From a virus, in IMG/VR virus record IMGVR_UViG_3300032753_000082, positions 1-38,718 of that record: 38,718 nucleotides of DNA; one strand, written 5' to 3'. Made by a program: the position numbers and the translations under genes. The notes beneath the pieces are model-generated. The model made no database searches and was not told the origin of the DNA. It saw only the letters and a program-made list of their open reading frames with translations. Below, in pieces: positions 21,329 to 38,718 of the stretch. How positions within the stretch are numbered: position 1 is the stretch's first letter; every line of letters begins with the position of its first letter.

Positions 21329-21604
21329 ATGGTTGTAAGTCTGCAGGTAACAATCACAACTACGGGCGTAGCTCAGCAGATCAGTACGGCCCAGACCCAG
21401 GTTCGTTTCATCGATTTTCAGAATAACGCTGCCGCTGCAATGCGGATCGGTGACTCGACAGTGAGCGCAACCAAAGGACATACCCTTGCGGCTACGGGAG
21501 GGGATTTCCCGGTCCACACAGGGGATGTGTATTTTTCCTACCTCAGCGATTGGTGGGTCGAAGGCACATCTGGTCAGTTGCTCGACGTGACGTACATAAC
21601 GTAA
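21329..21604 (+). CDS. small beta-rich structural protein, 91 aa
   Basis: ATG directly after the preceding TAA. The sequence VSLQVTITTTGVAQQISTAQ TQVRFIDF, then AAMRIGDSTVSATKGHTLAA, follows a pattern of small phage virion proteins (a beta barrel with repeated Thr strands and an IG(D)S.VS...G turn), often found next to tail or fibre genes. No cysteine, no signal peptide. Its TAA overlaps the ATG of the giant fibre gene (TAATG). Confidence 0.55.
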   Translation: MVVSLQVTITTTGVAQQISTAQTQVRFIDFQNNAAAAMRIGDSTVSATKGHTLAATGGDFPVHTGDVYFSYLSDWWVEGTSGQLLDVTYIT

Positions 21605-24600
21605 TGAAAAAGTGGATCGCCATCTCGTTGCTGTTCCTTGCAAGCATGGCCTTCGGGCAGTCCGTGGTTATCACGGGCACGGTTTTGAGCCCATCCGGGC
21701 AGCCTTACAGCAACGGCAACGGGAAGGCTCAACTACAGCCAAGTAACGTACAGTGGTTGTTCGGAAATTCGCCTGTTCCTAGTCCCATAACGATCGCAAG
21801 CCTGGATTCATTCGGCCGTTTCAGCGTTACCCTAACCAGTACGGCCGTAATCCAGCCACAGTCCCAAGGACCAACATGGCAGTTTAGCTTCTGCAGTCAG
21901 GTCTACGCCTCACAGACACAGCCTGTTTGCTTCACGATGACCCCGATGGCTCTAACGACATCGCAGGACATTAGCACGCAGATTCAGGCGCAGTCGGCAC
22001 CATTGCCTTCGTCTGGTGGGGGGATTACGAGCTTAGGGCTTAGCGTCCCTCAAGGTTTGAGCGTGTCTCCGTCCAGCCTCTCAGCGCCGGGTACGTTTGC
22101 GATCACTTGGAACGGAACTCCAATCCCAAACTCTGCCATTCCTGCCCCAACCGCCTCAGCGCTTGGCGGGGTGGAATCGATCACCTGCACGAATCAGTTC
22201 TTGAGTGCCATTTCCACCTTGGGAGTGCCACTTTGCACTACACCGTCGTTCGTGTCGCTAACCACCACAGGAACGGCTGGAGCAGCGACTCTTTCCGGGG
22301 GTGTCCTGAACATCCCCCAGTACACAAGTAGCGGCGGCGTTGTCTCCTCCACTGCGCCATTTCAAGCTCTGTACAGCGGCACGCCCGGCAGTACGGTAAC
22401 GACGGTTAGTGGCCAGCAGAAGCCCATCTATGACGTCCGAGATTACGGCCTCGCTTGCAACGGCTCAACAAACGACACAGCGGCAATGGTTGCGCTCCGT
22501 ACAGCGAACACACAAAATGCGGCAGTAGCGATTCCGGTTGACGCGACCCACCCGGGCCCCTGTGAACTTGGCGGCATCAATCTTCCGTTCGCGCTGGATT
22601 TCTCAGGCGGCGGCGCGATTGGAGTGATTGCCAACCCAGCTACTCCCGGCAACGGTGCTTTGGTGCAGGCGAGTCCTGGCACCGCGTACACCGGAAATAG
22701 TTGCACGGCAACTTTAAACTCGGCTCCGACCGCAGGCAATGCGGTCTTGATGGAAATTATCTATGAATTTGGTTCGGGCACGGTTCCAAATCTTCCCACG
22801 GACTCTGCCAACGACTCCTTCAATGTGCTGTTGCAATCGAACCTTAGTTTCGAATCTAACTCTACGTCGTGGGCTGCGGCTGCAGTGGCAGGGGGGAGCG
22901 CGAGTCAAGCGATCACAGTCACGCTCGCTGGTGCTTCCACGCACGGTGTTTGCTTCGCACAGGAAGTTTCCGGAGAAGGCACTGGAATCGCAGTCGATCC
23001 AGGCAGCACCTTTACATATGCTAGTGGCTCGTCGCCCTACAGTGGACCGTACAGCGTCACGGCGACCTTAGAGCCCGGTGACTTCGTTCTAGCCTACGGC
23101 GGGCAAGGCACAAATAACACGACATGCACCCAGGGCAGCGGATTTACTCAACCGTCCAGCACCGAGGGAAATGTCAATGGAATGTGTTTGCAGTACCAAG
23201 CGGATTCCTCCGCGGGCTCGGTAACCGCGACACAGACCACATCTCCCAACTCCTTCAGTGATTACTGGGTCTACAATATCGTCGGAATTCGGCCAGGAAC
23301 TTCCGTCGTCCATCCACAAGCAGGAATCATCGATCCGGACCTGCATCAGGTTTTCGTGAACGCTACTGGTGCGAATGGCGCAATCAGTTTCTTTCACAAC
23401 TTAGCCCTGAGTAGGGTCTATCCGGAATGGTGGGGCGGGTCCCCGCCTGTTTCGGCAGCAACCAATACTCCTGCTATCCAAGCGGCCATCAATGCGTCGT
23501 TCAATAACGGCGGACCGGCCTATAACAAAGTTCTCGACCTCGGCCGCGGCATTTACAACATCAACGCCGAAACCCAGTGGTACACGGTCGAAGGCAACGC
23601 GGGTGCGCGCTTTCAAGTAGACTGCGCGCCAGCCGGCGGAATCAACCAGACAACCGCAAATCTTCGTCTGATGGACTCGCAAGGTATGGACTACGGGCGA
23701 TTTGATAACTGCTCGTGGAGTTCTTCGGCAACCGACACACAGGCCACGGCCCTGCTTGATATCGACTGGAACGGCACGACGACGCCGAACAGTCAGAAAC
23801 CGCAGTTTCTGGACTTCTACTCAAACACGTTCGGCGGGAACAAACTCCGAGCAATCGGCGTCCTTGGAGCGAAAAGCGGCGGATCGGCACAGTTCTCAAA
23901 CATCAACTTCTACGACCCGGAATTCATTGGCTTTACGCAGGCGGCTTACCAGATCGGAACACCGACAGTTCTCGCGGATAACGCGATTGAGAACTTCATC
24001 TGGGGCGGTGACATGCAGGGGAATAATGACTACGGGGCAGCCGTTTATGGCGGCAACATCGAAATCATTGGCACCAGCATGGAGAATGGGTTTTCAGCCA
24101 CCACGAATGAAGGAGCGCAGACTGGTTACGACATGTACTGTGCTCAGAACCAAGGCAACTGCATCATGGAGTATGTCCGCTCTGAAAGTATGCACTTAGC
24201 GGCCTGCACAACCTGCATCATCAAGCACAGTTATACAACCGATCAAGGAGTATTCCCAGTTCCAGGTGGAACTCAGCCAGTAGGCACGATTGTAGATGGA
24301 CACAACGAAGCAAATGCTTGGGACGGACGATATTATATCGTCACAGCAGACAACGGAGCGTTCGGAGGAGTTGGAAGCACAAGCACGCCGGTCATCGCAT
24401 CAGGTGGGAGTGGGACGACCATCGTAGACACTAACGAAAATGTGGCAGGTTCGGTCACTACAAAAATTTCGCTCGCGGGAGAGACAGTTACCCAGACTGG
24501 AACTGGATCAACCGCAACTCTATTGAATGTTCCTGCCTCTATCGGTACGGTTGCTGGATCACTCGGCATAACTCTTTGCACTGGTTTGGAAACAATGACG

Positions 24601-26619
24601 CAATCGAGCAGTGGAGTAACAGGCGTTTTGCAATTCCCGACGCCAAACAATACTGGCACTCCGTTGACGATGAATAATTTCAGCGGTACGGCACTGGGAA
24701 CGTCAGGCTTAACGTGGACTGGAGGGACCAGTGGTTGCGTTTGGACTCAAACTTCAGGCCCAACATTCTCCGCAACTACGATGGTGATTACGGCAGCAAC
24801 GGGATCACCAAATTCCTCTGGGGCGTGGACTGGAGGAACTAGTGGATTTACTTTCACTCCGACAGCGGTTCCAGTTGCGATTGCGGCATGGACGACCAAT
24901 CAGTTTGTTGGCATGGTGGTGGCTGTTGTTGGAGGAACGAACGCAGGCTGCAACGGAGTTGTGACCGCGAACTCCGCCCAGACGATTACTCTCAGTGCGG
25001 GATGGACCACGCAGTATTCATTGCTTAATTGTTCTTCTCCGGCCCTCAGCAGCACATTCATCGTTGAGCCGAACTGGGGAAGTGCAGGCACATTATATTC
25101 GTGTGCAACGGGCGCAACTTCTGCCTGCGCTGGAAGTGGTATGACGTTCGCTTTGGTAACTGGAGATGGAATTGGAACCTGCAATGGATGCTCCAGCAAC
25201 ACAGTTCAAGCTGAAGATGTCAGCGTTCCAGGTTTACTCTGGAGGATTTCACCTTCCAGTGGAACACACCTTAAAAACGTTGTGGTTACCATGTCAAATT
25301 GGCTCGACACTACAGGCATAGGTGATCCACAGCAATGTTGCGCTCTCGACCGAGATTGGGACGTGCGAAGGTCTGAAACAATTGGCCTCCCTCTAGTGGG
25401 AGGGAACCTAGCAGGAACTTACTACCAAACATGGTCTCTACCTTCGACCGGGGGCATCCCAGCCACGGCTGCATTGCAAGAGAATCTAGGGACTAAACAG
25501 CTTACCTTTACAACTGGGATCGTTGGAAATATCGCCAACACTGGGTCCAATGATGTGTGGGTAGGAGGTCGAAGTGATCCAAATTGCGGTACAGACATTA
25601 CCCGCTGCCATCTTGAAGTAAGTCCTAGTATTGGTCCCGCCGCCCCTTACGGGAAACTGAATGCCAATGGATCACCTTTCACGTTTGTCGCGGGACTTTC
25701 GACGGGGACAGGGACGCCCGGATCTTTTCAGTGGTACTGCGGAGCCACCGGCTCATCGGGAAGTGTTCCTAACGGCGGAGGGAGCAGTCCGTCGTACTGC
25801 ATGACGCTAGGCACGAGCGGGCTTCTCCTTGGCGCTCCTACAGGCGGCGGGGAAGGTGCAGGAACACTGAACGCGACGGGCCTGTATGTCAACGGTGTCG
25901 CGGTGGGTGGCGGGTTCACGGCAGGCGGCGACCTATCAGGCACGTCTACCTCCCAAGAGGTTGTCGGGGTGCTGTCTCACGCTCTGCCGTCTATTGCAAC
26001 GGGTTTCTTGAACTGGACTGGATCGGCATGGGCATTTTCTAGCCAGTACATTTCGTCTTTGACGACAACCGGTACCAGTGGACCAGCTACAGTATCGGGC
26101 GGCGTTCTGAATATCCCACAATATGCAGGCGGTGGTGGAACCGGTTCTCAGTACCAATCCGCCTACTTCTCGAATACGAACACCGTGGGAGCCTTCGGAC
26201 CGGGAATCACTGGTCAGGTAGCCACAAGCCAAGGCGCGAGCTCTGCGCCCGCCTATACGTCACAGGGGCTAGGTTTAGGCAATGGTGGGAGTCCGGTCAC
26301 CGCATCAACCTACCTGGTGAAGTGTGACAGTGGAACAACGATCTTGGATCGGGGAACGGTCCTAGTCTTCCAGTCGGGCGCTTCCGCAATCACCGTGCCG
26401 GATACGGGCAATACTGGGTGCGGAGCCGGATTCGCCTTCAAGATTATTGACGATGCTGCGGGAACAATCACGATCAGCCGTCAAACGTCATCCACGATCA
26501 ACATAGCAAACGGGACGACGAATTCTGACGGCCAGACAAGTTTCACGATGGGAAATGGTGCATTTGCAACATTCAGCGCGGACGGATCAGGTCACTACTG
26601 GGTTACGCTGACGCAATAG
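21604..26619 (+). CDS. giant tailspike/fibre protein with Sec signal peptide
   Basis: A 1671-residue protein. The frame is open to 21550, but the ATG at 21604 is the real start: it sits on the stop of the previous gene and gives a classic signal peptide, MKKWIAISLLFLASMAFG|Q. Order after cleavage: a beta domain (VVITGTVLSPSGQPYSNG); a fibre motif (LTTTGTAGAATLSGGVLNIP); a pectate-lyase/tailspike start (YDVRDYGLACNGSTNDTAAM) leading into a parallel beta-helix; a module of about 220 residues inserted into it (bases about 22636-23300); repeats with TWTGGTSG-type strands; a second fibre motif; and a fibre tip (TVLVFQSGASAITVPD). About 32 cysteines, often in pairs (CTTC, CNGC, QQCC). Likely binds or degrades surface glycan. 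The signal peptide is odd for a phage fibre. Confidence 0.8.
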   Translation: MKKWIAISLLFLASMAFGQSVVITGTVLSPSGQPYSNGNGKAQLQPSNVQWLFGNSPVPSPITIASLDSFGRFSVTLTSTAVIQPQSQGPTWQFSFCSQVYASQTQPVCFTMTPMALTTSQDISTQIQAQSAPLPSSGGGITSLGLSVPQGLSVSPSSLSAPGTFAITWNGTPIPNSAIPAPTASALGGVESITCTNQFLSAISTLGVPLCTTPSFVSLTTTGTAGAATLSGGVLNIPQYTSSGGVVSSTAPFQALYSGTPGSTVTTVSGQQKPIYDVRDYGLACNGSTNDTAAMVALRTANTQNAAVAIPVDATHPGPCELGGINLPFALDFSGGGAIGVIANPATPGNGALVQASPGTAYTGNSCTATLNSAPTAGNAVLMEIIYEFGSGTVPNLPTDSANDSFNVLLQSNLSFESNSTSWAAAAVAGGSASQAITVTLAGASTHGVCFAQEVSGEGTGIAVDPGSTFTYASGSSPYSGPYSVTATLEPGDFVLAYGGQGTNNTTCTQGSGFTQPSSTEGNVNGMCLQYQADSSAGSVTATQTTSPNSFSDYWVYNIVGIRPGTSVVHPQAGIIDPDLHQVFVNATGANGAISFFHNLALSRVYPEWWGGSPPVSAATNTPAIQAAINASFNNGGPAYNKVLDLGRGIYNINAETQWYTVEGNAGARFQVDCAPAGGINQTTANLRLMDSQGMDYGRFDNCSWSSSATDTQATALLDIDWNGTTTPNSQKPQFLDFYSNTFGGNKLRAIGVLGAKSGGSAQFSNINFYDPEFIGFTQAAYQIGTPTVLADNAIENFIWGGDMQGNNDYGAAVYGGNIEIIGTSMENGFSATTNEGAQTGYDMYCAQNQGNCIMEYVRSESMHLAACTTCIIKHSYTTDQGVFPVPGGTQPVGTIVDGHNEANAWDGRYYIVTADNGAFGGVGSTSTPVIASGGSGTTIVDTNENVAGSVTTKISLAGETVTQTGTGSTATLLNVPASIGTVAGSLGITLCTGLETMTQSSSGVTGVLQFPTPNNTGTPLTMNNFSGTALGTSGLTWTGGTSGCVWTQTSGPTFSATTMVITAATGSPNSSGAWTGGTSGFTFTPTAVPVAIAAWTTNQFVGMVVAVVGGTNAGCNGVVTANSAQTITLSAGWTTQYSLLNCSSPALSSTFIVEPNWGSAGTLYSCATGATSACAGSGMTFALVTGDGIGTCNGCSSNTVQAEDVSVPGLLWRISPSSGTHLKNVVVTMSNWLDTTGIGDPQQCCALDRDWDVRRSETIGLPLVGGNLAGTYYQTWSLPSTGGIPATAALQENLGTKQLTFTTGIVGNIANTGSNDVWVGGRSDPNCGTDITRCHLEVSPSIGPAAPYGKLNANGSPFTFVAGLSTGTGTPGSFQWYCGATGSSGSVPNGGGSSPSYCMTLGTSGLLLGAPTGGGEGAGTLNATGLYVNGVAVGGGFTAGGDLSGTSTSQEVVGVLSHALPSIATGFLNWTGSAWAFSSQYISSLTTTGTSGPATVSGGVLNIPQYAGGGGTGSQYQSAYFSNTNTVGAFGPGITGQVATSQGASSAPAYTSQGLGLGNGGSPVTASTYLVKCDSGTTILDRGTVLVFQSGASAITVPDTGNTGCGAGFAFKIIDDAAGTITISRQTSSTINIANGTTNSDGQTSFTMGNGAFATFSADGSGHYWVTLTQ
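22255..22323 (+). repeat. fibre motif LTTTGT..AT.SGGVLNIPQY, copy 1
   Basis: Encodes LTTTGTAGAATLSGGVLNIP then QY. A second copy lies near 26056-26124 in the same gene (LTTTGTSGPATVSGGVLNIP then QY). The motif is common in trimeric phage fibres and tailspikes, where it often comes before or after a beta-helix. The copies bracket the beta-helix region. Confidence 0.65.
26056..26124 (+). repeat. fibre motif LTTTGT..AT.SGGVLNIPQY, copy 2
   Basis: Encodes LTTTGTSGPATVSGGVLNIP then QY; 18 of 22 or more residues match the copy at 22255-22323, while the DNA differs at many third positions. It comes before the C-terminal fibre tip of the giant protein. Confidence 0.65.
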
Positions 26620-26627
26620 GGAGGCTT

Positions 26628-28862
26628 ATGAAACGGATTATTTTGGTGCTTTTAGTGGCGGCCTGCTTCGGACAGAACGGTCTGCATGACTTCGCGCCTT
26701 CACTCGGCAGGGGGCTCAACGTCAACGTCGTTGGTGGGGTGGCGGCGATCAGCACCGTTCCAACGGCCATCGCAGGGACTTCCGTAGGAGTCGCGGCGAA
26801 TACCACAACCTACATCTATGTGGACCTGTCCGCGGCGATCATTTCGTCAAACACCAGCGGTTTTACCTCGACGGAATACCCCGTGGCCACGGTGGTGACT
26901 AATTCTACCCAGATTGTGACGTTGACGGATGATCGGCCGGGGGCCTATGCGGTGTCAGGCGGTGGGGGGAGCGGTACGGTTTCGTCTGTCTCTAACTCGG
27001 ACGGAACCTTAACCATTACCCCCACGACAGGGGCCGTGATTGCTGCATTGGCCTTGGCTCATGCGAACACTTGGACGGGACAGCAAACCTTTGTCGCTCC
27101 GATTTTAGGCACTCCTGCGTCCGGGATCATCACCAACCTGACCGGTACCTGTACGAGTTGCACGTCGAATCTGGCCGTCAACATCAGTACAAACGGTACA
27201 GCAAACCAGGTTTGGGGCATGAACTCTGGTGCGACTGCGCAGGGATGGCAGACGGTGAGCGCAGCCGGCGCTAATACGTCACTCTCGAACCTCGTTTCCC
27301 CCGTCGCCAATGTGCCGATCGGACTGCCGGCCGGCACCATTTCAGCGCCATCAATCTTCGATTCCACCGATGTGTCGACGGGAATTTACTTCGACGGGCA
27401 GGGCAGCGGGAGCATCGACTTCGTTCTGCATGGCGTCGAGTATTTGCAAATGGCGACGACGACCCATGGAGCATTTCAGATCCGTTCGCCCATCTGCGAC
27501 TACGTCACATCGACTGGCTGCTGGACGTTCGCCAGCTCTGGCCTCACCGCGTCGGTGCCGGTTCTTCTCGCTGGATCTAGCAGCGGCACATTCGAGCTCA
27601 GCGCCAATAGCACCGGCTCCCAGCTCAACCTTGGTCCGGATGCGAACGTGACTTCAGCGGGAGCGCTGACGGTCACGTCTTGCACGGGGTGCGGAGGCGG
27701 AGTCACATCTATTGCAACCACCTCCCCGATCACTGGTGGAACTATCACTACGACTGGAACTATCGCTTGCGCGACGTGCGTTACCTCGGCGGCTTCGCTG
27801 ACTAGCACGGCTATTATGACTGGCGCTGGTTCGCAAGCGTCGCAGACGCCGGATACGACCGCGACCTTGAGTTCTGGCGGCGTACTGGCCGGTGTGTCAA
27901 TGGCTGAAAATCTGCTCACCGGAGCGGCGGCGGCGGGGACAATCACCGAAGGCGGGTCAACTTTCAGCGTAACTCGCGCGGGTGTATCCACGGCTAACCT
28001 GACCGCCCCTTGGGTGTTTCAGAATACGAACTCCACTAACAACAACACGTCGATCACGCTGGGCATCACTTCTCCGGGAACATCTACAGGCCAAACTACA
28101 CTGAACATCAACGGCGCAACAACGGGGGGCGATCTCACAGATTGGGGCACCGGCGGGACATGGACGGCGGGAGTTTTGTCGGGACAGACGAACGTGGCCA
28201 AGGTCGGGATAACGGGCGGGTTTACCGGACTCAATTTCACAGGCAACGGAACAACTGCTGGATTCATTGATTTCGCGCAAGGTTCAACCAGTGCAGCGGT
28301 AGCACCCTGCAATACGGCCAACAGCATTTGCGATCAAGCTCCAACGGCGGTAACAGCCGGCGTTCGCACTCTTCCGCCCGCTCTGGCCCAAGGCGTGTTG
28401 ACGAACGCTGGTTCTTCGTCGGCATTGCAGCAAGGTTATAGCGGGGATGCGGGCCACTCAACTACGGTGACGATCAGTTCCGCAACTTCGGTTAGCTCCA
28501 CGTCTTTGTGCTCAACCACGATTTGCCCGGCCGGTACCTATCAGATCAATGGCTATCTTGATGTGACCACCGCCTGTTCGACGACCGGCGGATATTTTGT
28601 CAGCATCATCTTTACGGACGACGCGGGATCAAAGACCGTAGTGATGCCGCTGATCGGAACCGGGGTCACGGCCAGTCTGCTCACTTCAACGGGAATCAGT
28701 TCATCGCTGGCGTTGTCATCAACCAGCAACTTCGCCCAAGGCGATCTGTTCATCCGTTCAACGGGCGCGGCATCAATCAACTATTCGACGACCGCCAGTG
28801 CATGCGCGACGGGTGGTCCGGCTGCGGGCAAACTGTATTTATCAGTTATCCCAGTTCAGTAG
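26628..28862 (+). CDS. secreted fibre-like protein, possible lipoprotein
   Basis: A 744-residue protein; ATG at 26628 after AGGGAGG. The N-terminus MKRIILVLLVAACFGQ is a short signal peptide. VAAC fits a lipobox, so signal peptidase II processing at Cys13 is possible; cleavage at FG|Q is the alternative. The body is Ser/Thr/Gly-rich beta sequence (GTVSSVSNSDGTLTITPTTG, ATTSPITGGTITTTG, AENLLTGAAAAGTITEGGST) typical of phage fibres, with paired cysteines (CTSC, CTGCGGG, CATC). The C-terminal 140 residues form a jelly-roll-like tip (SLCSTTICPAGTYQINGYLD, FTDDAGSKTVVMPLIG). It lies between two other exported genes. Likely host contact or adhesion; the exact role is unknown. Confidence 0.7.
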   Translation: MKRIILVLLVAACFGQNGLHDFAPSLGRGLNVNVVGGVAAISTVPTAIAGTSVGVAANTTTYIYVDLSAAIISSNTSGFTSTEYPVATVVTNSTQIVTLTDDRPGAYAVSGGGGSGTVSSVSNSDGTLTITPTTGAVIAALALAHANTWTGQQTFVAPILGTPASGIITNLTGTCTSCTSNLAVNISTNGTANQVWGMNSGATAQGWQTVSAAGANTSLSNLVSPVANVPIGLPAGTISAPSIFDSTDVSTGIYFDGQGSGSIDFVLHGVEYLQMATTTHGAFQIRSPICDYVTSTGCWTFASSGLTASVPVLLAGSSSGTFELSANSTGSQLNLGPDANVTSAGALTVTSCTGCGGGVTSIATTSPITGGTITTTGTIACATCVTSAASLTSTAIMTGAGSQASQTPDTTATLSSGGVLAGVSMAENLLTGAAAAGTITEGGSTFSVTRAGVSTANLTAPWVFQNTNSTNNNTSITLGITSPGTSTGQTTLNINGATTGGDLTDWGTGGTWTAGVLSGQTNVAKVGITGGFTGLNFTGNGTTAGFIDFAQGSTSAAVAPCNTANSICDQAPTAVTAGVRTLPPALAQGVLTNAGSSSALQQGYSGDAGHSTTVTISSATSVSSTSLCSTTICPAGTYQINGYLDVTTACSTTGGYFVSIIFTDDAGSKTVVMPLIGTGVTASLLTSTGISSSLALSSTSNFAQGDLFIRSTGAASINYSTTASACATGGPAAGKLYLSVIPVQ

Positions 28863-28869
28863 GAGGCAT

Positions 28870-29673
28870 ATGCGTTTTAGGGTAGCGATTGCGTGGCTGA
28901 TTCTTGCGAACGGATTGATCTCCGGGCAGGGCATCGGAGGGCAAGCGGGAATAGGTGGTAAGGCTGGCTTGGGCGGAGGCGCACCGAGCGGCGGGGCTAT
29001 TCCTGGATATGTCCAAGGGAAGGTGTGCGATAACCCCGCGACAACTACGACCATCACCTGCACTTACACGAGCAACGTGACTTCCGGCGATTGTATGACG
29101 GTCGGGGGTGCCCTTTACGTGGGCGGCTTGGGCAGCAATCCAACAGTAACAATCACCTCCAGTGGAGACACTTGGACAACCGACACTTACTACATTCAGA
29201 TTGCTAACTATAGTCGGGCCGTGTTTCTTGCGCACGGTAAAGCTGCTTCTGGTGGAAGCAAAACTATTACGGCAACCTTCTCGGTTAGTTTTGGCGGCGG
29301 AGCATCCGAGGGGATTTTTGTCCAAGAATTATCCCATCTGAACTGTACTTTAGATAAGGCGATCACAGCCAATTCCGCCGGAAGCTTGAATTCCGGAACC
29401 ACTTCATTTACCAGTGGCACGATGACGACAACGAGTGACGCGGTGGATATGCTCGTCGCCAATTGCGGAGCCGGAGCTTCGGAAACATGGACCGCTGGAG
29501 GGGTGCAGGATTCCGGAGTTGGTTATGCGATCGACGCGACCAACGGAGTAGACACAGCTTCTAGTCCTGCCGCGATTGAATATCAGGCCGTAAGCGCGAC
29601 GGGGGCTTTTGCTGGGCTAATGACTATCAGTTCTGCGGCCAGTGGGCCGTGCGTGGTAGTAGCTCTGAATTAA
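28870..29673 (+). CDS. secreted Gly-rich beta-domain protein
   Basis: A 267-residue protein. The start is the ATG at 28870, after AGGAGG (28861-28866); the frame is open upstream but overlaps the previous gene. Signal peptide MRFRVAIAWLILANGLISG|Q, then a Gly-rich spacer (GIGGQAGIGGKAGLGGG) and one beta-sandwich-like domain (CTYTSNVTSGDCMTVGGAL, SGGSKTITATFSV, IFVQELSHLNC). The domain resembles the insertion in the tailspike gene at about 22636-23300: both have an early Cys-T segment, a T.G..... strand, KTITATF/ITVTLA and a following FVQE/FAQE strand. The protein seems to be a free copy of that module with its own export signal. Confidence 0.65.
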   Translation: MRFRVAIAWLILANGLISGQGIGGQAGIGGKAGLGGGAPSGGAIPGYVQGKVCDNPATTTTITCTYTSNVTSGDCMTVGGALYVGGLGSNPTVTITSSGDTWTTDTYYIQIANYSRAVFLAHGKAASGGSKTITATFSVSFGGGASEGIFVQELSHLNCTLDKAITANSAGSLNSGTTSFTSGTMTTTSDAVDMLVANCGAGASETWTAGGVQDSGVGYAIDATNGVDTASSPAAIEYQAVSATGAFAGLMTISSAASGPCVVVALN

Positions 29674-29674
29674 C

Positions 29675-32600
29675 ATGAAGCGATTTCTCCTAATCCTGAT
29701 TGTTTGCTGGGCGCGTCTAGCCTTCTCGCAAGGATCCTGCTCGAACTTTGCCGGAGGATCGTGTCCGGCGAACATCCCGTCGGGCGTTGTGCATTTTTAT
29801 TTCATCGACCCTTCGTCGGGCTCGGACTCTAACAGCGGAGCATCCGAATCGGCGGCTTGGGCACATCTGCCGGGAATGACCGGCGTCACTGCTGGCGTCG
29901 GACCGGGAGTCATCGACAACTACGCAGGCACGGGAACAGACAATTGCGGTTCAAGCACTTGCGATTTCCACGCCTATGGTTTCATCGTGCGCGGCGGCAC
30001 AACCTTTACATCTGCTTCGCTGCCGATGTTCATGCGCGAGATGGGAACCTCAGCCGCACCACTTTACTTCGGCGTCGATCCCGGATGGTATTCGGGCGGA
30101 TCCTGGTCGCGTCCGATCTTCAATGCTGGCGGATCGTCAGCTAACCTCTGCGGCAATACCGCGACCGCCGCCACCGGATCAACCTGCTTTGGCGGCAACG
30201 GGCTGATCACTTTTTCCCCGACCGGCTATGTCTACTGGGACAATTTCGAGTTCACGAACCTCTACTGGTATGCCTCCGGAGTTACTAACGGGCAAGAAAC
30301 CTATCTCAATTTCGCTCGCTGCAACAGCACCGGAAATTGCGTCCTCGAGCACAATTATGCGCACGGCTGGGCGCACCATGCCTACAGCTCGGGAGCGAAC
30401 GCCGACGTTTGCAATCTTTTCGCGGGCGACACTTCGGTCGTGGACCGCACGTCCATTGCCGAGTTCAACGTGGTTGACGGCTCGGATACGGCGGAAGATG
30501 CGTGCGTGGCCTTCTGGGGCGGTCCGCCCTTCGCCAACAACAACTACATCCATGGCGTCCCGAACGGGGCAGTCGTTGATAGCGTCATCTCGTGGTCAGG
30601 CAACTGGTTCGACACGATCACCACCTCCTACGATACGACGCAACACCAAAATACTTTCGAGGACAATGGAGCGCATAACAACGAATTCTTTTATAACAAC
30701 GTCGCCACGAACACGACAAATTCTGACGGTCTAACTCTAAACTTCGCACCATGCACAGGGACAACGACTTACGTCTTCAACAATGTGGAAGGAAACACCG
30801 ATGACACTCCGCTGAATGTGCAGCCAGAATGCGGCACCGGAACACTTTTCGTTTTCAACAACACCATCGAGCTCGGTGCGGACAGTGTGGCGGGCACCGG
30901 CAATAGTGGAGTGGGGACAGGCACTTATCCTGGCTGCCCAACCGGACTCGCGGGATGCACCTATCGCAACAACCAGTTCATCGGCACAAATACGCAAGCG
31001 GATCAGACCTGTAACGCAACTTGCACCAACACCACGGATCTGAGTCAGACCATCGCGGTGGCGAAGGCGAACTCGAGCCCGGCCTTTAACCAGTACGCAT
31101 TTTCGCAGTCCCCTTATATTTTCAGTCCCACCGCAAGCACCAATTCAACGGTTGGGGCGGGCACGAACACGGCTAGCGTCTGCACCACGATCTCTGGACT
31201 AAACTCGGCGGCTGGCACGGCTTGCAGCAGCGATACGAATTATGGCGTGACCTATAACTCCACGGCGCACACCGTCAGCGCTCCCGCTCGCACAGTGAAT
31301 TCGCGGCCAGCATCCGGTGCGTGGGACATCGCAGCTTACGAATACGCGCTTTCCCAAGCTACTGCTCCTACCTGCACTCCGACCTCGGGCAATGCACCAC
31401 AGAGCTTAACGTGTTCCAATTCTAATTCGGCTCCTACCGTGATGTGTGCGGCGATTTCTCCGTCGAATCCTGTAAGCAATGGAGCAGGAACAGGATGCCA
31501 TGTTGGCACCCCGCTAGGCACAGGAAGTTCAGAACCCTATTCAGCGCTCATCGGCGGAACCTACAATTTCATCGCAGGAACCGCCTCACTCGCAGATAGC
31601 AACGAAACGTCCTACACCTTCGGCAACTGCCCCACCTCCACCCAAGCCGGCGTCCCTGGCATCCCTAATTATGGCGGGCTACGAGTCGATACCTGCACCA
31701 TGAACATCGGAGCAATTCCAAATGTCTGGACGAGCTACTCCACAGACAATGGATTTACGGGTGCGGGGCTTTGCACAACGAATGATGCTGGGAATGTGAT
31801 TTGCCGGGTTTCAGACGGAAACTCTGACCCCACGCTAATCGGTGGAACATTTACCACGAACTACTCCGGTTCGGACGTTGACCAGCACATTTCCCTAGAC
31901 GGTTCACAGTTTGTCATCGGGCGGGATGGCTCATCGAATAGCTATCTGTACGTCTATTCTGGGATTGGAAGTCCACAACCTGTCACGATTTCCGGATCAC
32001 CTTACACCATCCCGACCAAGATCGTAGCTTTTAGCCAGAGTACTCCCAAAAAACTGTACGCGATGAATATCGTCCAGGGTGGACCATCGCCAGTGACGGC
32101 GGTTAACGGGTCGGGACAATACACCGGTACGATCGCAGCGGGGAGTTCCAACAACCTCGCGGGGGACTACGGTATAACGTCCGGCTTCGGGGCTGGCGGC
32201 AATATCACTTCCCCGACGCTCATAACCGCTTCGACGGGAACCAGTGTTTCTTTCAGTGTGACAACAACCGCGCAATCCTGTCCTGGAACCTGTACGCTGA
32301 CGGTCGTCTCGCAGGCAGCCATCTCGAGCTATAACCTCTCGGCCTGTACTGCAACCTCTTGCTCTCCAACCCCAACTGCTATTTACGATTTCGCGCAGGG
32401 CACCTGCCTAAACTGGGCGAATGGCTTTCAGCCGTCGTGGTCTAGCGTTTGGCGCGTCTCAAACGACGATTCGACGTTTAGCATTGCGTTTTCGAACAAT
32501 CAGGGCGCGGCGGGAGGACAGAATACTGGGACGCTCATAGCGACCTACAAAGTGGGGAGTGGGTGTCGGGTGATGAACAGTTTCCCTGCCTCGATAGCTC

Positions 32601-34219
32601 TCACAGCCGTAAACGGCTCTGGAGTCTATTCCTGCACCTGCCCGGGCGCGGCGGCAAACCTCTATGCCTACGCGACCATGACCGTCACCGGATTCACCAA
32701 TTCGGATAACGACGTCACCAACGCGCTTATAACGGCTTCTAGCGCGACTTCAATTACGATCTCGGCTACCACCACCACCGAGACTGCGAGCGCTTCAGCG
32801 GCCTTCTCTGTCGCAGGAATACCCGGTTCTACGATCGTTGGAGACTATGGACCGACCGGGGCCGTGGCGATGACCAATTGTGGTGGCACTCCGGGGGCTT
32901 GCTCAACTCCAGACGCTTACGCGATTCACGATATGTACCAATTTGGGAACGCCAATGCGAATTATACCGTTGGCGAGAAGTGCTTAGGAGGCACAGGCTG
33001 TACGCCGGGAACGACCACCTTGGATCAGCCTTACGCGTGGCTCATCGATTCCCTGAACGTTCTCGCAACGAACTCCTCTGGGCATTTTGGGGTGGGCTAC
33101 GACTACATCATGCACGGGACAAACAGTCCGCAGGGGCAAACAGGATTGTTTGAAGTGCAGAGTGGTGGTTCGCTCGTAAGTTCTCCGAGCAGCATCAACA
33201 TTGTCTCAACCACCTCGCCCGATAATCTGCCAAACCCCGGCGCCATCATTCTGGATATTCACTGCTCATGGAATGACAACTTGGGTATCGATTACTACCC
33301 AGTAGAATGCGGGAATACGACCGTTGCCATTGACATGGCACAGACGCCGCCTCACTTTGCGAACAACGGATGCGACCAGCACGGCTACCTCCAGAGTCCA
33401 CCGAATTGCCTGACGACGAATCCGTTTACAGGGCCACTTGTCAACGAACTGATTATCTACCCTACAGCACCTTTGGGAGGGCCAGTTTGCACTTCCGCGC
33501 CGTGCAGCGTCTTGCCCTTACTGCGCCTTGGGAATGGCTATATCAGTGCAGTCTCAAACGACTTTTCGGCAGCAAATCTGATTGAGAGCATATCCCCGAA
33601 TGGTGCCTACGTCCTGTACACGACGGATCACATGTGCACTTTGGGTGCAACATCGGTGTCTATTACCGGGTTTACGGGGTCAAGCGGAACCTTGACCTTT
33701 ACGGCGGTTAATGCGTTCTCTGCTGGAAATAGCTTCGCCCTCGGCGGATTCTCCGGAGCCAATGCTGGGCTCAACGGGCAGACGGTAACAGTCCTATCTG
33801 CCGGCCTAAGCGGGACACAGTTTGAGGCGACGGTGACAGGATCGGGCTATACGGGAGGCAACGGTAAGGCGATCAACGCCCCACCCTATATCTGTGGCGG
33901 TCCGTTATGGCAATCCACCAACAACTACAACGCTGGGGACGTAATGACCCCACTCACAGCGAATACACCGAACTGCACCTATCATGCCCAAGCGGCGGGC
34001 ACTAGCGGGAGCACACAGCCAACATGGGTAAGTAGCAATCTGTGCATCACCACACCGATTACAGACGGCACGGTAACGTGGATCTATGACGGGATGCAGA
34101 ACATGAGAGGTGACGTTTTTATGGTCAAAACGGGGATCGCGAACGTTGTCATCCCGCCGAACAATTTTTTGCTCTTAGGTTCGACCTACGCAAACCGTCT
34201 TTTCGATGGAGGATATTGA
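29675..34219 (+). CDS. giant secreted beta-helix/adhesin-like protein
   Basis: A 1514-residue protein with signal peptide MKRFLLILIVCWARLAFS|Q. An N-terminal right-handed beta-helix region begins with FIDPSSGSDSNSGASESAAW, a pattern common in parallel-beta-helix proteins, and has repeated Asn/Phe turns (VVDGSD.., YIHGVPNGAVVDSVI, FFYNNVATN). Near residue 570 a chitobiase-C-terminal-like domain follows (PTCTPTSGNAPQSLTC). Later come repeated modules starting TAVNGSGQYTG and TAVNGSGVYS, a module TFTAVNAFSAGNSFALGGFS, and a W-x-AY-G module at the end (about 33900-34095). It contains nearly 50 cysteines. No catalytic motif is seen. Like its neighbours it appears to be exported, and may be an adhesin or glycan-binding fibre. 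Confidence 0.75.
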   Translation: MKRFLLILIVCWARLAFSQGSCSNFAGGSCPANIPSGVVHFYFIDPSSGSDSNSGASESAAWAHLPGMTGVTAGVGPGVIDNYAGTGTDNCGSSTCDFHAYGFIVRGGTTFTSASLPMFMREMGTSAAPLYFGVDPGWYSGGSWSRPIFNAGGSSANLCGNTATAATGSTCFGGNGLITFSPTGYVYWDNFEFTNLYWYASGVTNGQETYLNFARCNSTGNCVLEHNYAHGWAHHAYSSGANADVCNLFAGDTSVVDRTSIAEFNVVDGSDTAEDACVAFWGGPPFANNNYIHGVPNGAVVDSVISWSGNWFDTITTSYDTTQHQNTFEDNGAHNNEFFYNNVATNTTNSDGLTLNFAPCTGTTTYVFNNVEGNTDDTPLNVQPECGTGTLFVFNNTIELGADSVAGTGNSGVGTGTYPGCPTGLAGCTYRNNQFIGTNTQADQTCNATCTNTTDLSQTIAVAKANSSPAFNQYAFSQSPYIFSPTASTNSTVGAGTNTASVCTTISGLNSAAGTACSSDTNYGVTYNSTAHTVSAPARTVNSRPASGAWDIAAYEYALSQATAPTCTPTSGNAPQSLTCSNSNSAPTVMCAAISPSNPVSNGAGTGCHVGTPLGTGSSEPYSALIGGTYNFIAGTASLADSNETSYTFGNCPTSTQAGVPGIPNYGGLRVDTCTMNIGAIPNVWTSYSTDNGFTGAGLCTTNDAGNVICRVSDGNSDPTLIGGTFTTNYSGSDVDQHISLDGSQFVIGRDGSSNSYLYVYSGIGSPQPVTISGSPYTIPTKIVAFSQSTPKKLYAMNIVQGGPSPVTAVNGSGQYTGTIAAGSSNNLAGDYGITSGFGAGGNITSPTLITASTGTSVSFSVTTTAQSCPGTCTLTVVSQAAISSYNLSACTATSCSPTPTAIYDFAQGTCLNWANGFQPSWSSVWRVSNDDSTFSIAFSNNQGAAGGQNTGTLIATYKVGSGCRVMNSFPASIALTAVNGSGVYSCTCPGAAANLYAYATMTVTGFTNSDNDVTNALITASSATSITISATTTTETASASAAFSVAGIPGSTIVGDYGPTGAVAMTNCGGTPGACSTPDAYAIHDMYQFGNANANYTVGEKCLGGTGCTPGTTTLDQPYAWLIDSLNVLATNSSGHFGVGYDYIMHGTNSPQGQTGLFEVQSGGSLVSSPSSINIVSTTSPDNLPNPGAIILDIHCSWNDNLGIDYYPVECGNTTVAIDMAQTPPHFANNGCDQHGYLQSPPNCLTTNPFTGPLVNELIIYPTAPLGGPVCTSAPCSVLPLLRLGNGYISAVSNDFSAANLIESISPNGAYVLYTTDHMCTLGATSVSITGFTGSSGTLTFTAVNAFSAGNSFALGGFSGANAGLNGQTVTVLSAGLSGTQFEATVTGSGYTGGNGKAINAPPYICGGPLWQSTNNYNAGDVMTPLTANTPNCTYHAQAAGTSGSTQPTWVSSNLCITTPITDGTVTWIYDGMQNMRGDVFMVKTGIANVVIPPNNFLLLGSTYANRLFDGGY
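33900..34095 (+). repeat. W-x-AY-G beta module, copy 3
   Basis: Encodes LWQSTNNYNAGDVMTP, then TYHAQAAGTSGSTQPTWVSS and ITDGTVTWIYDG. It is the same module type as at 14947-15141 and 15375-15560, so the nozzle-like protein and the secreted fibre share building blocks. This copy has two extra cysteines (PNCTYH and SNLCITT). Confidence 0.6.
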
Positions 34220-34608
34220 TGAAACAAATTCCGTACGCCTTAACCGCTCTGATGCTGATTGTCTTAGCTTGGCGGGAGCCTATCAAAACCGTTCAGGCTC
34301 AGTCCTCCTACGCCTTCTTAGCCCCTGTAGCGTCACTGCAAGCATGTGCTTGGCCTTCGGGGATGACGACAGGCTTTGCCCTATGCCCCATTACGGCAAA
34401 CGGGTCTACGGTAGTTGCCTTCGCCGCGAGTGGGGGACCGTTTACAGTGCCCTCCCAAGGGCCTAGCGGGGCCGCTGGAGCGCCCGGGCAAGGGTTTGCG
34501 ATAGGAACCGCCATCACGTTCAAAGAAACCTGCCCTAAGGGCTCCGGATCGATTCCGGCTGGATTTACGACAAGCGGGTGTACTCTGACCATAACTGGGC
34601 TCAACTAG
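34219..34608 (+). CDS. secreted small protein with collagen-like segment
   Basis: A 129-residue protein. ATG at 34219 is preferred over the TTG at 34216 because GGAGG (34208-34212) is 6 bases upstream and the TGATG overlap couples it to the previous gene. The N-terminus MKQIPYALTALMLIVLAW... is a signal peptide with likely cleavage at VQA|Q. The mature part contains a short collagen-like run (GPSGAAGAPGQG, four G-X-Y triplets) and four cysteines. Collagen-like repeats are known in phage fibres, where they help trimerise. It may be a short partner of the giant adhesin upstream. Confidence 0.6.
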   Translation: MKQIPYALTALMLIVLAWREPIKTVQAQSSYAFLAPVASLQACAWPSGMTTGFALCPITANGSTVVAFAASGGPFTVPSQGPSGAAGAPGQGFAIGTAITFKETCPKGSGSIPAGFTTSGCTLTITGLN

Positions 34609-35592: not shown

Positions 35593-35602
35593 AGGGGGTT
35601 TT

Positions 35603-36012: not shown

Positions 36013-36023
36013 AGGGAGGCTGT

Positions 36024-36194
36024 ATGCCAATGTCAATCTTGTTCTGGGTTATCTACATCATTTCGTTGCTGGTTGGGTTTTGGGGCTATTACGAGCCAAC
36101 AGGAGCTTGGGTCCGCCGCGCAGGAGGCTATATTGCCCTGTGGGTGTTGGTGGGCATCCTAGGCTGGAGCGTCTTTGGACCTGCTATCAAGTAG
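36024..36194 (+). CDS. two-helix membrane protein, 56 aa (holin-like)
   Basis: ATG at 36024 after AAGGGAGG. It is a very hydrophobic peptide with two predicted membrane helices: SILFWVIYIISLLVGFWGYY and GYIALWVLVGILGWSVFG, separated by a short turn with two Arg (GAWVRRAGG). The size and hairpin shape suit a class II holin or a small membrane-inserted phage protein. It is too short to be called by many tools. The role is inferred from topology and neighbours. Confidence 0.55.
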   Translation: MPMSILFWVIYIISLLVGFWGYYEPTGAWVRRAGGYIALWVLVGILGWSVFGPAIK

Positions 36195-36220
36195 GGTTCT
36201 ATACGGTACTCTAGCAAACT

Positions 36221-36628
36221 ATGAGCGAACTGGCCCAAGGGTTAACGATCGCTGCGTTCTCAGTAATTCTCGCCGCGATACTGGCGTTCATCGTCAGGCT
36301 GAACGGTCGGATCGACGCTCTGACGGTCAGCACCGCGAAACTGGAAACGCAAATATCTCCCTTTTGGGCTAGCGTGCAGCTCCAGATTTCAAAGGACCTG
36401 CACCATCCGAATCCGCGCTATCACGAGATGGATGACCTACTGGAGAAGTTGGAGGCTCTGACGATCTCCCCGGAGGAGCGTGAGCGTCTAAAGGCTCTGC
36501 TGGTGGAGCGCTCCTCGGATACGCACGAGGACATATCCGAAGACCAGCGCAAAAAAGCCAGTCTCATGATTCCGCTGATGGACATGGTGACGGAAGAAGC
36601 GAAGCAGAGGGAAGTCCATGAACATTAA
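36221..36628 (+). CDS. membrane-anchored coiled-coil protein
   Basis: A 135-residue protein with one N-terminal membrane segment (LTIAAFSVILAAILAFIV), then a helical region (ALTVSTAKLETQI) and a charged C-terminal domain (DDLLEKLEALTISPEERERL, DISEDQRKKASLMIPLMDMV). The layout is like a spanin or a phage lysis-regulator type protein, but no family is recognised. No clear ribosome-binding site is present. Its last 11 bases overlap the start of the glycosidase-like gene. Confidence 0.55.
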   Translation: MSELAQGLTIAAFSVILAAILAFIVRLNGRIDALTVSTAKLETQISPFWASVQLQISKDLHHPNPRYHEMDDLLEKLEALTISPEERERLKALLVERSSDTHEDISEDQRKKASLMIPLMDMVTEEAKQREVHEH

Positions 36629-37538
36629 ACACGCCGTACAGAACGCCATCCCCGGCTGGACCGGTCGGCTCGCAGCCCACTACATTTCGTACAATGCGAA
36701 CGGACAAGTACATCGAGATTTACCCTACGCCAACCCAAACGATCCCAAGGTCATTGCCAAACAACTGGAACTGATTCAGGCGTGTGGATTCGATGTGGTC
36801 ATATCGACTTGGCAGGGGCCGTGGGCTACAGCCTGCAACCAGAACGCCATGGCCGTTTCGGCGCTCTGTACTGCGATGGGCCTCCAGTTCGCTCTGTTAC
36901 TGGACCCGTGGTGTGCCAAGCTCAATTCTCAAGGGCAGGCGACAGCACCGTCGATCAGTAACCTGATTGCAGCTTTGCAATACTCAACCACTCAGACCAT
37001 GCTCAAGGCGACGAGCTACGTCCCTGAAAAGTACGTGCTCGATTTCAACACCCTTAACCCTACGACGTTGACCAACCTGAACGCCCTGACCACGGCCATC
37101 CCGGGAGTTGAGTTTCTCGCGCAGAACACCGAGTTTTCGTGGATTGCCTACCCTCCGGCGACGATTACCGACTCGGTAGCCAAAAACGCTTGGGCCACTG
37201 CAAATTTGCAGGTGCAGAATAAGAACGCTGGGATGAAAGTTCCTGGCGTTTGCATGTCGTTTAACGATTCGGGCTTGCCATTGCCTCAAGGAGTTCCCAC
37301 GCAGGCCGCTTTTGATGCGTCAGGAGGCGTTCGGGACTGGTCTATGAGCGTTTGGCTACCCCCAGCCCCCAATCGCGTCCTAGGGAGCTTTGGAGGGCAA
37401 TTCCTCCTGCAGCAGTTGGCGGTTACACCAGCGGCCGCACCCATAATTGCCATAATTACCTGGAACGATTACGACGAGGGCACGGCGCTCGAGCCTAAAA
37501 TCTCTGAATTGCTGGGTGTAAACTGGGCTAGCCTATGA
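36618..37538 (+). CDS. GH71/GH99-like glycoside hydrolase (TIM barrel)
   Basis: A 306-residue protein; ATG at 36618 after GAGGGAA. Strands end in motifs typical of GH71/GH99-type barrels: AAHYISYNANGQVHRDLPYA at the first strand, FDVVISTWQGPWATACNQNA, LQFALLLDPWC, VEFLAQNTEFSW and the closing TWNDYDEGTALEP (residues 281-293), the best-known motif of the group, with an acidic pair at strand 8. Known relatives act on alpha-glucans or mannans. In a phage this may degrade a host capsule or cell-wall polymer for entry or release. No signal peptide is seen. Its stop overlaps the next start (ATGA). Confidence 0.7.
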   Translation: MNIKHAVQNAIPGWTGRLAAHYISYNANGQVHRDLPYANPNDPKVIAKQLELIQACGFDVVISTWQGPWATACNQNAMAVSALCTAMGLQFALLLDPWCAKLNSQGQATAPSISNLIAALQYSTTQTMLKATSYVPEKYVLDFNTLNPTTLTNLNALTTAIPGVEFLAQNTEFSWIAYPPATITDSVAKNAWATANLQVQNKNAGMKVPGVCMSFNDSGLPLPQGVPTQAAFDASGGVRDWSMSVWLPPAPNRVLGSFGGQFLLQQLAVTPAAAPIIAIITWNDYDEGTALEPKISELLGVNWASL

Positions 37539-37942
37539 TCTTCGTGGTTCAGCGCAGAGTCATCAGTTCGGTATGCACAATGGGAACGTTGTCGATCGAC
37601 TGGAAACAGAACTGCTACACCCTTGAGCCCCCCTACGCCGCCGATACGGTCAAGCCTCGAGCCATCCCCGCGGGAACCTATGATCTAGCCGTCGGATACT
37701 CCCCGCACTTCAACCGGCTAATGCCACAGGTTCAGAACGTGCCCGGATTTGAGGGCATACTGATTCACTGGGGAAACTATCCGGACGATACTGAAGGCTG
37801 TACCATCGTTGGCACCCTCGAGGAAGCGAATTTTGTTGGTCACTCCGTAATAGCCTTTGACGAACTGTTCAAAGTGATTCAAGATGCAGTTGCATCCGGT
37901 CCCCAGGTCATCACGTACCTAGATCCTCCCAAAGGAGCCTAA
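37535..37942 (+). CDS. DUF5675-family protein
   Basis: A 135-residue protein with its ATG overlapping the glycosidase stop. The pattern YTLEPPYAADTVKPRAIPAG, then TYDLAVGYSPHFNRLMPQVQNVPGFEG (given in two parts: TYDLAVGYSPHF and NRLMPQVQNVPGFEG) and ILIHWGNYPDDTEGCTIVG is that of DUF5675: IP.G.Y....S..F......NVPG...ILIH.GN...DT.GC...G. The conserved His-Asn-Asp-Cys cluster (IHWGN, DDTEGC) looks like an active site. The biochemical role is not established; the family is common near phage lysis genes. It is the best candidate here for a cell-wall-active enzyme besides the glycosidase. Confidence 0.7.
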   Translation: MIFVVQRRVISSVCTMGTLSIDWKQNCYTLEPPYAADTVKPRAIPAGTYDLAVGYSPHFNRLMPQVQNVPGFEGILIHWGNYPDDTEGCTIVGTLEEANFVGHSVIAFDELFKVIQDAVASGPQVITYLDPPKGA

Positions 37943-37943
37943 A

Positions 37944-38306
37944 ATGGCTAACAAGTTTCTCGGATTTCTCGAGGCAGTCGGACGAGACCTAAAAAAGGCT
38001 CTGCCGTGGATTCAGACGGCAGGAGAAGCCGCAGTTCAGGTATTCCTCCCCGGCGCCAGTGTGCTTTTTAACCAGACCGTTAACGCGGTCGTAACCGCCG
38101 AACAGAGTTATGCCGCCATCGGGCAGCAGGGCAAGACAGGAGTTTCAAAGTTGGCCGCTGTCGTCCAACTCATGGGGCCGCTTATTGCTCAAGGGCTGGC
38201 AGACGCGGGCAAAGCCAACGATCAGGCCGCGGTCGAAGCATACATTAACGCCATTGTGCTCATCTTGAACACTACGCCGGTGAGTACAGCGCCGGCCGCA
38301 ACTTAA
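37944..38306 (+). CDS. hypothetical helical protein, 120 aa
   Basis: ATG at 37944 with AAAGGAG upstream. It starts with an amphipathic helix (MANKFLGFLEAVGRDLKKAL) and continues with small-residue-rich helices (VQVFLPGASVLFNQTVNAVV, LAAVVQLMGPLIAQGLADAG, AYINAIVLILNTTP). Similar proteins sit in lysis cassettes of other phages but have no set function as far as I know. The segments are not hydrophobic enough for certain membrane helices. An intrinsic terminator follows directly. Confidence 0.6.
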   Translation: MANKFLGFLEAVGRDLKKALPWIQTAGEAAVQVFLPGASVLFNQTVNAVVTAEQSYAAIGQQGKTGVSKLAAVVQLMGPLIAQGLADAGKANDQAAVEAYINAIVLILNTTPVSTAPAAT

Positions 38307-38318
38307 CTTCTCTCCCGT

Positions 38319-38356
38319 CCGGGATGCTGTCTTAGAGGCCAGCGTCCCGGAATTTT
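38319..38356 (+). terminator. intrinsic terminator at end of lysis region
   Basis: CCGGGATGCTG (38319-38329) pairs with CAGCGTCCCGG (38340-38350), 11 pairs with one G-U, a loop of 10 bases, then AATTTT (T-run 38353-38356). It lies 12 bases after the stop of the preceding gene and 10 bases before the ATG at 38367, whose ribosome-binding site GAGG begins right after the T-run. Confidence 0.8.
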
Positions 38357-38366
38357 ACGAGGCTTT

Positions 38367-38718
38367 ATGAAACGACTCGCACTGCTTCTGCTGTTCGCTC
38401 TTACCTGTAGTGGCTTTGGACAAACCCTGAGCCAAGGAACCGTAACCTTCGCCCTCGAAGCCATCGTTCCCGGCACGACAGATTACATCTACGACTTCAC
38501 TGTCGCAGGCGGGTTTCCAGAGCAAAAGGGCGGTCACCTCCCAGATGGATTTGGTTACAACGCGGGCACGCTGACTCTGGAATACACCCAAGCCCAAGTA
38601 GGCAACGCATACAACGTCACAGCCAACTTTGTGGGCTATGCCCAGTCTCCGATGATGGATGACTTCTGCTCCATCGTCAGCGCTAATCTAACCGACGTAA
38701 CGCTGACTTCTACGAAGG
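38367..38718 (+). CDS. secreted protein, 3' end cut by window
   Basis: ATG at 38367, GAGG (38359-38362) 4 bases upstream, open to the window end (117 codons). Signal peptide MKRLALLLLFALTCSGFG|Q, followed by TLSQGTVTFALEAIVPGTTD, a beta-rich sequence with one cysteine (DDFCSIVSANL). The signal matches those of the other exported genes here (FGQ at the cleavage site). It lies just after a terminator, so it needs its own promoter or read-through. The mature function cannot be told from this fragment. Confidence 0.6.
   Translation, partial: MKRLALLLLFALTCSGFGQTLSQGTVTFALEAIVPGTTDYIYDFTVAGGFPEQKGGHLPDGFGYNAGTLTLEYTQAQVGNAYNVTANFVGYAQSPMMDDFCSIVSANLTDVTLTSTK

Follow-up and report, generated by a model that had tools for sequence, protein, structure and literature searches.

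Signal peptides and even cysteine numbers in the fibre-like genes of an uncultured phage family point to protein export

The IMG/VR virus record IMGVR_UViG_3300032753_000082, 38,718 nt long and analysed here as a whole (the window), is from a member of an uncultured phage family and carries six plus-strand genes whose products begin with predicted signal peptides (SPs) of the Sec type. The first (21604..26619) encodes a large fibre/tailspike-like protein of 1671 amino acids (aa) with the SP MKKWIAISLLFLASMAFG and the site AFG↓Q; the mature chain would start at the Q encoded at 21658, and none of the protein's 32 cysteines (Cys) lies in the SP. Its ATG shares bases with the stop codon of the gene before it. 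The longest open reading frame (ORF) at this locus begins at TTG 21550, and the relative G007 starts at the same SP, the N-terminal stretch including the SP being 61% identical between the two over 158 columns. Directly behind the cleavage site lies a transthyretin-like N-terminal domain (mature residues 1-120, 21658..22017, plus strand) with a Cys pair at mature positions 79 and 91; a related domain occurs in 10 of the 25 additional relatives, among which fragments are common.

Four more of the six genes lie in the same fibre cluster (21604-34608). The 744-aa fibre-like protein (26628..28862) has the SP MKRIILVLLVAACFG, the site CFG↓Q and 15 Cys, 14 of them after cleavage; its partial homologues in G023, G009 and G022 are all SP-flagged. 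A 267-aa protein (28870..29673) carries the SP MRFRVAIAWLILANGLISG with ISG↓Q and 6 Cys in the mature part. The 1514-aa protein (29675..34219; SP MKRFLLILIVCWARLAFS, AFS↓Q; 49 Cys, 48 after cleavage) was labelled tailspike/beta-helix-like by eye, without a family match. It had no plasmid match, and a sequence search gave no solved relative; its homologues in G007 (at 45057, 27% over 902 aa), G016 and G018 all have an SP. The 129-aa protein (34219..34608) has a 27-aa SP ending at VQA↓Q, the weakest of the six, with the charged c-region WREPIKT, and 4 Cys in the mature part; small SP proteins of similar layout occur in G012, G021 and G029. The sixth gene (38367..38718) sits outside the fibre cluster and runs off the window's end; it is the start of a 153-aa protein (SP MKRLALLLLFALTCSGFG, GFG↓Q; 3 Cys, 2 after cleavage) that is complete in the overlapping IMG/VR contig 3300032677_000040.

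All six N-termini show a charged n-region, a hydrophobic core and small residues before the cut, with G, G, G, S, A and G at -1 and A, C, I, A, V and G at -3. A home-made SP detector flags all six, but its cut falls too early in three of them, by 4 residues at 28870, 10 at 34219 and 2 at 38367. In Pfam and PHROGs the window's SP-bearing proteins went unrecognised, with sub-threshold matches only. An earlier sequence-only reading had proposed Sec-type SPs on these six genes. That assignment is confirmed at the level of prediction: the starts are real, all six are flagged as Sec/signal peptidase I-like and the feature is conserved across the family.

Relatives were found with the major capsid protein (phrog_9953; 10227..11291, plus strand), whose own SP score is under the detector threshold. 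The capsid profile gave 33 loci, four carrying the window's own capsid, and 14 relatives were assembled for gene calling; G024, a contig that ends before the fibre region, was left out of the SP and Cys counts. In the 13 counted relatives the capsid is 42-87% identical to the window's, and core genes are common to the family down to about 30-48% identity. Fibre bodies are mostly dissimilar between genomes; by inspection, an SP stands at nearly every fibre-cluster gene, with five consecutive SP genes in G012 and five in G021. The predicted N-termini do recur in related phages. G007 (capsid 87%) has four SP genes, plus SP-less fibre-like genes at 37295 (beside the cluster) and 24930 (further upstream). 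Two more genomes, found via the N-terminal domain, are likewise SP-rich in the fibre cluster. Among cultured phages the capsid and the N-terminal domain had no match, and the product of the gene at 13746 had one weak match. The search of genome contigs for a host or prophage found no relative with the capsid profile, two weak matches with the terminase profile and no host.

SPs are strongly concentrated in the fibre region, defined as 9.5-24.5 kb downstream of the capsid gene and counted over genes of at least 100 aa in 14 genomes. An SP at some plausible start was found in 58 of 103 fibre-region genes vs 27 of 602 others (Fisher p 9e-36, kinship of the genomes ignored); with the start of best ribosome-binding site only, the counts were 46/103 and 17/602. 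Among fibre-region proteins of at least 400 aa, 31 of 42 were flagged. The 11 unflagged ones comprise, by eye, five with a missed or underscored SP, five of ejection type or other kinds, and one SP-less fibre of G007. The control consisted of 152 annotated genes of at least 100 aa from lambda, T7, P22 and CRP-7 (CRP-7 over 50 of its 58 kb; a few genes that overlap or are joined omitted). There the detector flags four genes (Lom, two Rz spanins and T7 4.2), and none of the annotated fibres of these four phages.

Cys numbers provide a second line of evidence. Even numbers are favoured in exported proteins of bacteria with oxidative folding; both the preference and its Poisson background are described in the available part of PMC7678975. 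The parity set comprised every SP gene of the fibre region, a few of them not fibre-like, and SPs were removed at the first [AGSC]↓Q from residue 15 onward, otherwise at the detector cut. For proteins of at least 200 aa, the median Cys content was 2.06% in SP proteins of the fibre region (n=45) vs 0.51% in core genes (n=129). An even number was found in 48 of the 53 mature SP proteins with any Cys vs 35 of 54 precursors; non-SP genes gave 70/142 (core) and 163/329 (other). With the detector's own cut, 46/53 mature proteins were even, and with one protein per similarity cluster the mean was 36.6 of 40. The Poisson null is 0.49 (SD 0.07), and the observed 0.91 was reached in 0 of 20000 simulations. 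The mature Cys counts in the window's fibre cluster are 32, 14, 6, 48 and 4. Six SP genes added by eye gave five even and one odd. An odd number of Cys inside the SP occurs in 16 proteins, 15 of which become even on cleavage (one of the 15 is lipoprotein-like without further Cys). An artefact of composition was considered: at counts of six or more Cys, even numbers are in excess also among non-SP genes (106/165), so the argument is built on the comparison across all counts, on the difference between precursors and mature forms, and on the Poisson null.

The parity result supports export as a sign independent of the SP predictions, and for SP cleavage in vivo it is at most an indirect sign, weak in the second contig set described below. 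Together with the SP enrichment, it bears out the proposal that large fibre- and beta-helix-like proteins of this phage carry export signals. The usual view is that tailed phages assemble whole virions in the cytoplasm, a reducing compartment. Since SPs and parity both point to export, the paradox between export and cytoplasmic assembly stands.

The cleavage sites themselves are of a common kind. The sequence-only reading had seen a shared FGQ/FSQ site; this site is not specific. Q at +1 is present in 13/13 aligned N-terminal domains, where it forms one of seven invariant columns behind a variable SP (in a re-alignment of 15 domains, one row's Q is displaced by one column). [AGSC]Q within 14 residues behind the hydrophobic core occurs in 30/42 SPs of phage late genes. 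The same measure gave 27/36 and 26/33 on two Granulicella plasmids (400 of 476 kb and 300 of 300 kb covered), 10/18 in Cupriavidus (200 of 2580 kb) and 1/13 in Sinorhizobium (200 of 1683 kb). A small residue plus Q is frequent beyond phages, so FGQ/FSQ is one style of an ordinary [A/G/S/C]↓Q site. In the available part of Bochtler et al. 2018 (PMC5837995), the Q-rule is stated to be Bacteroidetes-specific. A direct reading in these terms was set aside, because Granulicella and Cupriavidus SPs share [AGSC]Q; for the same reason the Q does not name the host. The style fits hosts such as Acidobacteriota, without proving them, and the fibre N-terminus profile matches a protein of a Granulicella plasmid (E 7e-5) in its SP region and first residues. 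As an observation in its own right, the Granulicella tundricola plasmids NC_015057.1 and NC_015065.1 (L116-L135, L156-L170) hold acidobacterial SPs rich in [AGSC]Q despite the stated restriction of the Q-rule to Bacteroidetes.

The AlphaFold model of the N-terminal domain of the 21604 protein has 101 residues with pLDDT of at least 90, and a fold search with it indicates a transthyretin-like fold. Matches include the neck fibre (Z 7.9, residues 1-93) and tail fibre (Z 7.1) of cyanophage A-1(L) and the Ur-lambda tail fibre 9e7m_Ta (Z 6.9, residues 1-90); there are many non-phage proteins among them, some ranked above 9e7m_Ta. In a viral fold library, the best score (E 5e-5) is shared by the tail fibre of a podovirus and an uncharacterised protein of Rhodobacter phage RcapNL. 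The sequence profile matches the lambda fibre weakly (residues 3-62 to 3-62, E 0.37). A Pfam scan of 13 domain members matched three families at E<=1, and PF08400, which we take to be the lambda-type prophage tail fibre N-terminal domain, was not among them. Docking of the domain on the virion is plausible from the model, not proven. Alternative Cys pairs inside the domain are present or absent together; the G023 domain was scored odd where the end rule cut before a fourth Cys that the alignment shows.

A second set of 33 new contigs came from 64 loci, the other 31 loci lying in genomes already used, being short, or ending less than 4 kb from the match. Both contig sets include near-identical contigs (e.g. 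L203/L216 and L219/L220/L242). A search of 28 of the 33 contigs found 27 domain proteins, 26 of them with an SP and Q behind it, a 26/26 count obtained with a rule seeking [AGSC]Q. Among complete SP-bearing domain proteins in these further contigs, 16/18 have an even mature Cys number, near-duplicates included. The one domain protein of the 27 that differs is L226:18010 (contig 3300034819_000005), in which the domain begins at Met1, with no SP and 0 Cys in 445 aa. The genes before it are of the same kinds as in the family, two for proteins without Cys and one for a 98-aa protein without SP. L226:18010 can serve as a natural control, a single case in which SP and Cys are absent together. In L228:2895 and L243:1346, the SP-bearing domain fibre lies upstream, instead of downstream, of the 13746 homologue.

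Five contigs share a fibre-shaft stretch with the L226 protein, and all five proteins begin SP-like. None of the five records, of which one spans just 11.8 kb, yielded a homologue of the family terminase or of the 13746 protein; that true members are retrieved was shown for the 13746 profile and not for the terminase one. G036 holds four adjoining genes with SP and Q, whose mature Cys counts (10, 6, 12 and 4) are all even; parity is mixed elsewhere, with 14, 3 and 25 in G038 and 17, 4, 8 and 8 in G037 (fibre-like, Q-type). As SP fibres occur in contigs without a detected terminase homologue, the trait may extend beyond one phage family.

The genomic setting is as follows. The window overlaps 3300032677_000040 (54.6 kb, other start point), the joined span being 56.5 kb; about 1.9 kb at window positions ~11568-13469 is absent between the ends of the otherwise matching contig, probably at an assembly break. 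The order begins with terminase, portal (by size and place), capsid, an SU10-type adaptor and more conserved genes. It continues with two Cys-free proteins, which judging by position would be ejection proteins; the fibre cluster follows, and behind it come small hydrophobic proteins, a 306-aa protein that matched no family and a DUF5675 protein. The head-tail adaptor (12062..13531, plus strand) has no SP. The phage may have a podovirus-like short tail: the adaptor matches Pfam SU10_adaptor above the cut-off, and for the terminase the top match among those listed (best 15 of 63) is to Roseobacter phage CRP-7, with 25% identity. Modelling of the 13746 product gave a structure of low quality (pLDDT 53), which was set aside. 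Shine-Dalgarno-like motifs precede the window's genes; such motifs speak against a Bacteroidetes host.

Directly before the first fibre lies a 91-aa SP-less protein (21329..21604, plus strand), 48% identical over 75 aa to G007 36985, which has a similar place. Small SP-less genes (70-98 aa) also precede an SP-bearing or L226-type fibre in G017, G018, G022, G023, G029, G034, G035 and L226. In seven of these genomes the protein is acidic, with the common pattern NFERRLxETMDSELEPEMVTPNTAG... It may be a cytoplasmic tail-side partner. Elsewhere in the family, G007:22414-28172 holds two large extra genes between the capsid-side genes and the adaptor, one of them beta-helix/pectate-lyase-like by eye, SP-less and with 19 Cys. 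A protein of ~190-210 aa with a Tat-like N-terminus (RRxF/RRD) recurs in G007:51213-51806, L177:10023-10658, L229 (6064 bases behind the match end) and a piece of G037 (22566-23132), and thus also in one phage without a detected terminase homologue; the window's 145-aa gene at 5221-5658 is a weaker member. These twin-arginine-like proteins carry a lipobox-like SAC, TAC or TGC, except for the 145-aa one, and the one tested had no Pfam match. Outside the window, a minus-strand gene (41466-42197 of the joined genome) encodes a Gly/Ser/Asp/Tyr-rich repeat, GSGYGDGSGDG, with a G007 homologue 72% identical over 159 aa.

The statistics give SPs, their conservation throughout the family and, in the first set, an even Cys number that depends on cleavage. 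From these, we infer compartment, docking and timing as follows. Host Sec would export the fibre/tailspike-like proteins, which would then not be assembled in the cytoplasm; signal peptidase I would cut behind [A/G/S/C] and leave Q as the first residue; the mature fibres would form disulfides in the envelope (periplasm). Heads and tail cores would be built fibreless in the cytoplasm, and fibres would dock on tails by the N-terminal domain once the inner membrane gives way, during lysis or shortly afterwards. In vitro, P22 particles that lack tailspikes accept added ones, which makes a late attachment of fibres chemically feasible. In our judgement the predictions slightly favour fibres that leave the cytoplasm, become oxidised and attach to virions from outside that compartment, probably at lysis. 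The wider proposal is more tentative, a little short of an even chance: a second assembly route, in which a whole receptor-binding module is Sec-exported, oxidised, Q-trimmed (possibly to pyroglutamate) and attached to the fibreless virions no earlier than lysis, in one large uncultured family and in further phages without detected homology. Of the four roles suggested in the sequence-only reading, joining the virion outside the cell fits these predictions best, and a shed glycan-binding protein or a surface exclusion factor remain candidates. That reading is therefore partly supported: the SPs and the sign of export stand, the FGQ/FSQ specificity and the anchor role do not.

Several observations weigh against export followed by late docking. 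Granulicella is a candidate host type, and among the exported proteins encoded on its plasmids even counts are not in excess (31/58). The second set, with an SP in 39 of 99 downstream ORFs, gives a weak parity contrast: 29/37 mature proteins are even vs 20/37 precursors, 25/33 vs 18/33 without near-identical copies, and a mean of 11.7/17 vs 10.7/17 with one per similarity cluster. Of 21 proteins with an odd Cys number inside the SP (or a falsely extended start), 15 are even after the cut. This set holds fragments, doubtful starts and doubtful SP calls; it agrees only weakly, replicates the contrast poorly and lowers the strength of the test, and confidence in both the late docking of exported fibres and the new route is therefore slightly reduced, the rivals gaining a little. 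Proteins that bacteria export can have the transthyretin-like fold too (the SusC N-terminal domain), and a Z below 8 may reflect just a common arrangement. The L226 case stands alone, and the same contig holds a 113-aa SP-like gene with four Cys. SP-less fibre-like genes in G007 and L200 are candidates for the real virion fibres there, and in some further contigs (e.g. L229, L233) no SP fibre was seen within the part inspected.

The main rival holds that these are exported non-virion proteins, such as disulfide-bonded depolymerases, adhesins or exclusion factors acting on the envelope or on glycans, while the virion uses another receptor-binding protein. SPs and parity indicate export, not virion membership, and the SP-less genes of G007 and L200 could supply the virion fibre. 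Bacteria also export tailspike-fold enzymes, e.g. Pantoea WceF via a Tat signal (PMC7949094, available part), and P. gingivalis phages carry Q-rule SP proteins whose function is given as unknown in the accessible text of PMC10367356. Yet the fibre-region proteins of at least 400 aa in the 14 genomes include a single SP-less fibre look-alike (in G007, by eye), the conserved N-terminus with a variable body directly behind Cys-free ejection-type genes is the layout of a virion fibre, and the L226 homologue begins with the domain at Met1. We regard this rival as a serious possibility, although a doubtful one.

Two further explanations were weighed. If the SPs were idle relics of capture from host exported proteins, with fibres folding and staying in the cytoplasm, their Granulicella-like style and the profile match to the Granulicella plasmid protein would be accounted for. 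Such relics would hardly be conserved over divergent genomes and in nearly all cluster genes, even Cys counts are unexpected in a reducing compartment, and the SP-less L226 form has no Cys; the explanation is very unlikely. Least probable of all is an uncleaved hydrophobic N-terminus that anchors the fibre in the virion or membrane, one of the roles first suggested. A hydrophobic N-terminal helix alone would give a similar detector signal, but the +1 Q is invariant in the first alignment of 13 domains and present in all the further SP-bearing ones retrieved with the [AGSC]Q-seeking rule. Parity contradicts the anchor directly, since Cys inside the SP upset the even count and 15 of the 16 informative proteins are even only once the SP is removed.

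If fibres are exported and added late, disulfide-stabilised fibres become possible, and fibres would be kept apart from virions until lysis. A class of phage receptor-binding proteins would then need oxidative folding for activity, and an SP together with an even mature Cys number would be a simple sequence test to find such fibres in other phages.

Among the literature matches listed, in the portions of the sources available and with most subscription journals outside the search, there was no account of a tailed phage that exports its fibre module. Several known systems share parts of the pattern. Filamentous phage pIII and pVIII are virion proteins with Sec SPs that are assembled outside the cytoplasm; these phages differ in not being tailed and in being extruded through the membrane without lysis. 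The lambda side tail fibre (9e7m_Ta) appears to begin with a transthyretin-like domain, as the mature form of the window's fibre does, whereas in the lambda orf-401 fibre the domain begins at Met, with no SP and 0.5% Cys. According to the available text of PMC10367356, phages of Porphyromonas gingivalis likewise encode SPs whose predicted cleavage exposes Q; their five SP genes are of unknown function, are not described there as a fibre module and belong to a different host phylum. Lys44 of Oenococcus phage fOg44 is likewise a tailed-phage protein exported by Sec with a cleaved SP, but it is a lysis enzyme rather than a receptor-binding protein (PMC6116005, available part). Pantoea WceF, as described in the accessible part of PMC7949094, is likewise a tailspike-like beta-helix trimer with an export signal; it differs from the window's proteins in being encoded by a bacterial gene, carrying a Tat signal and standing outside any phage module.

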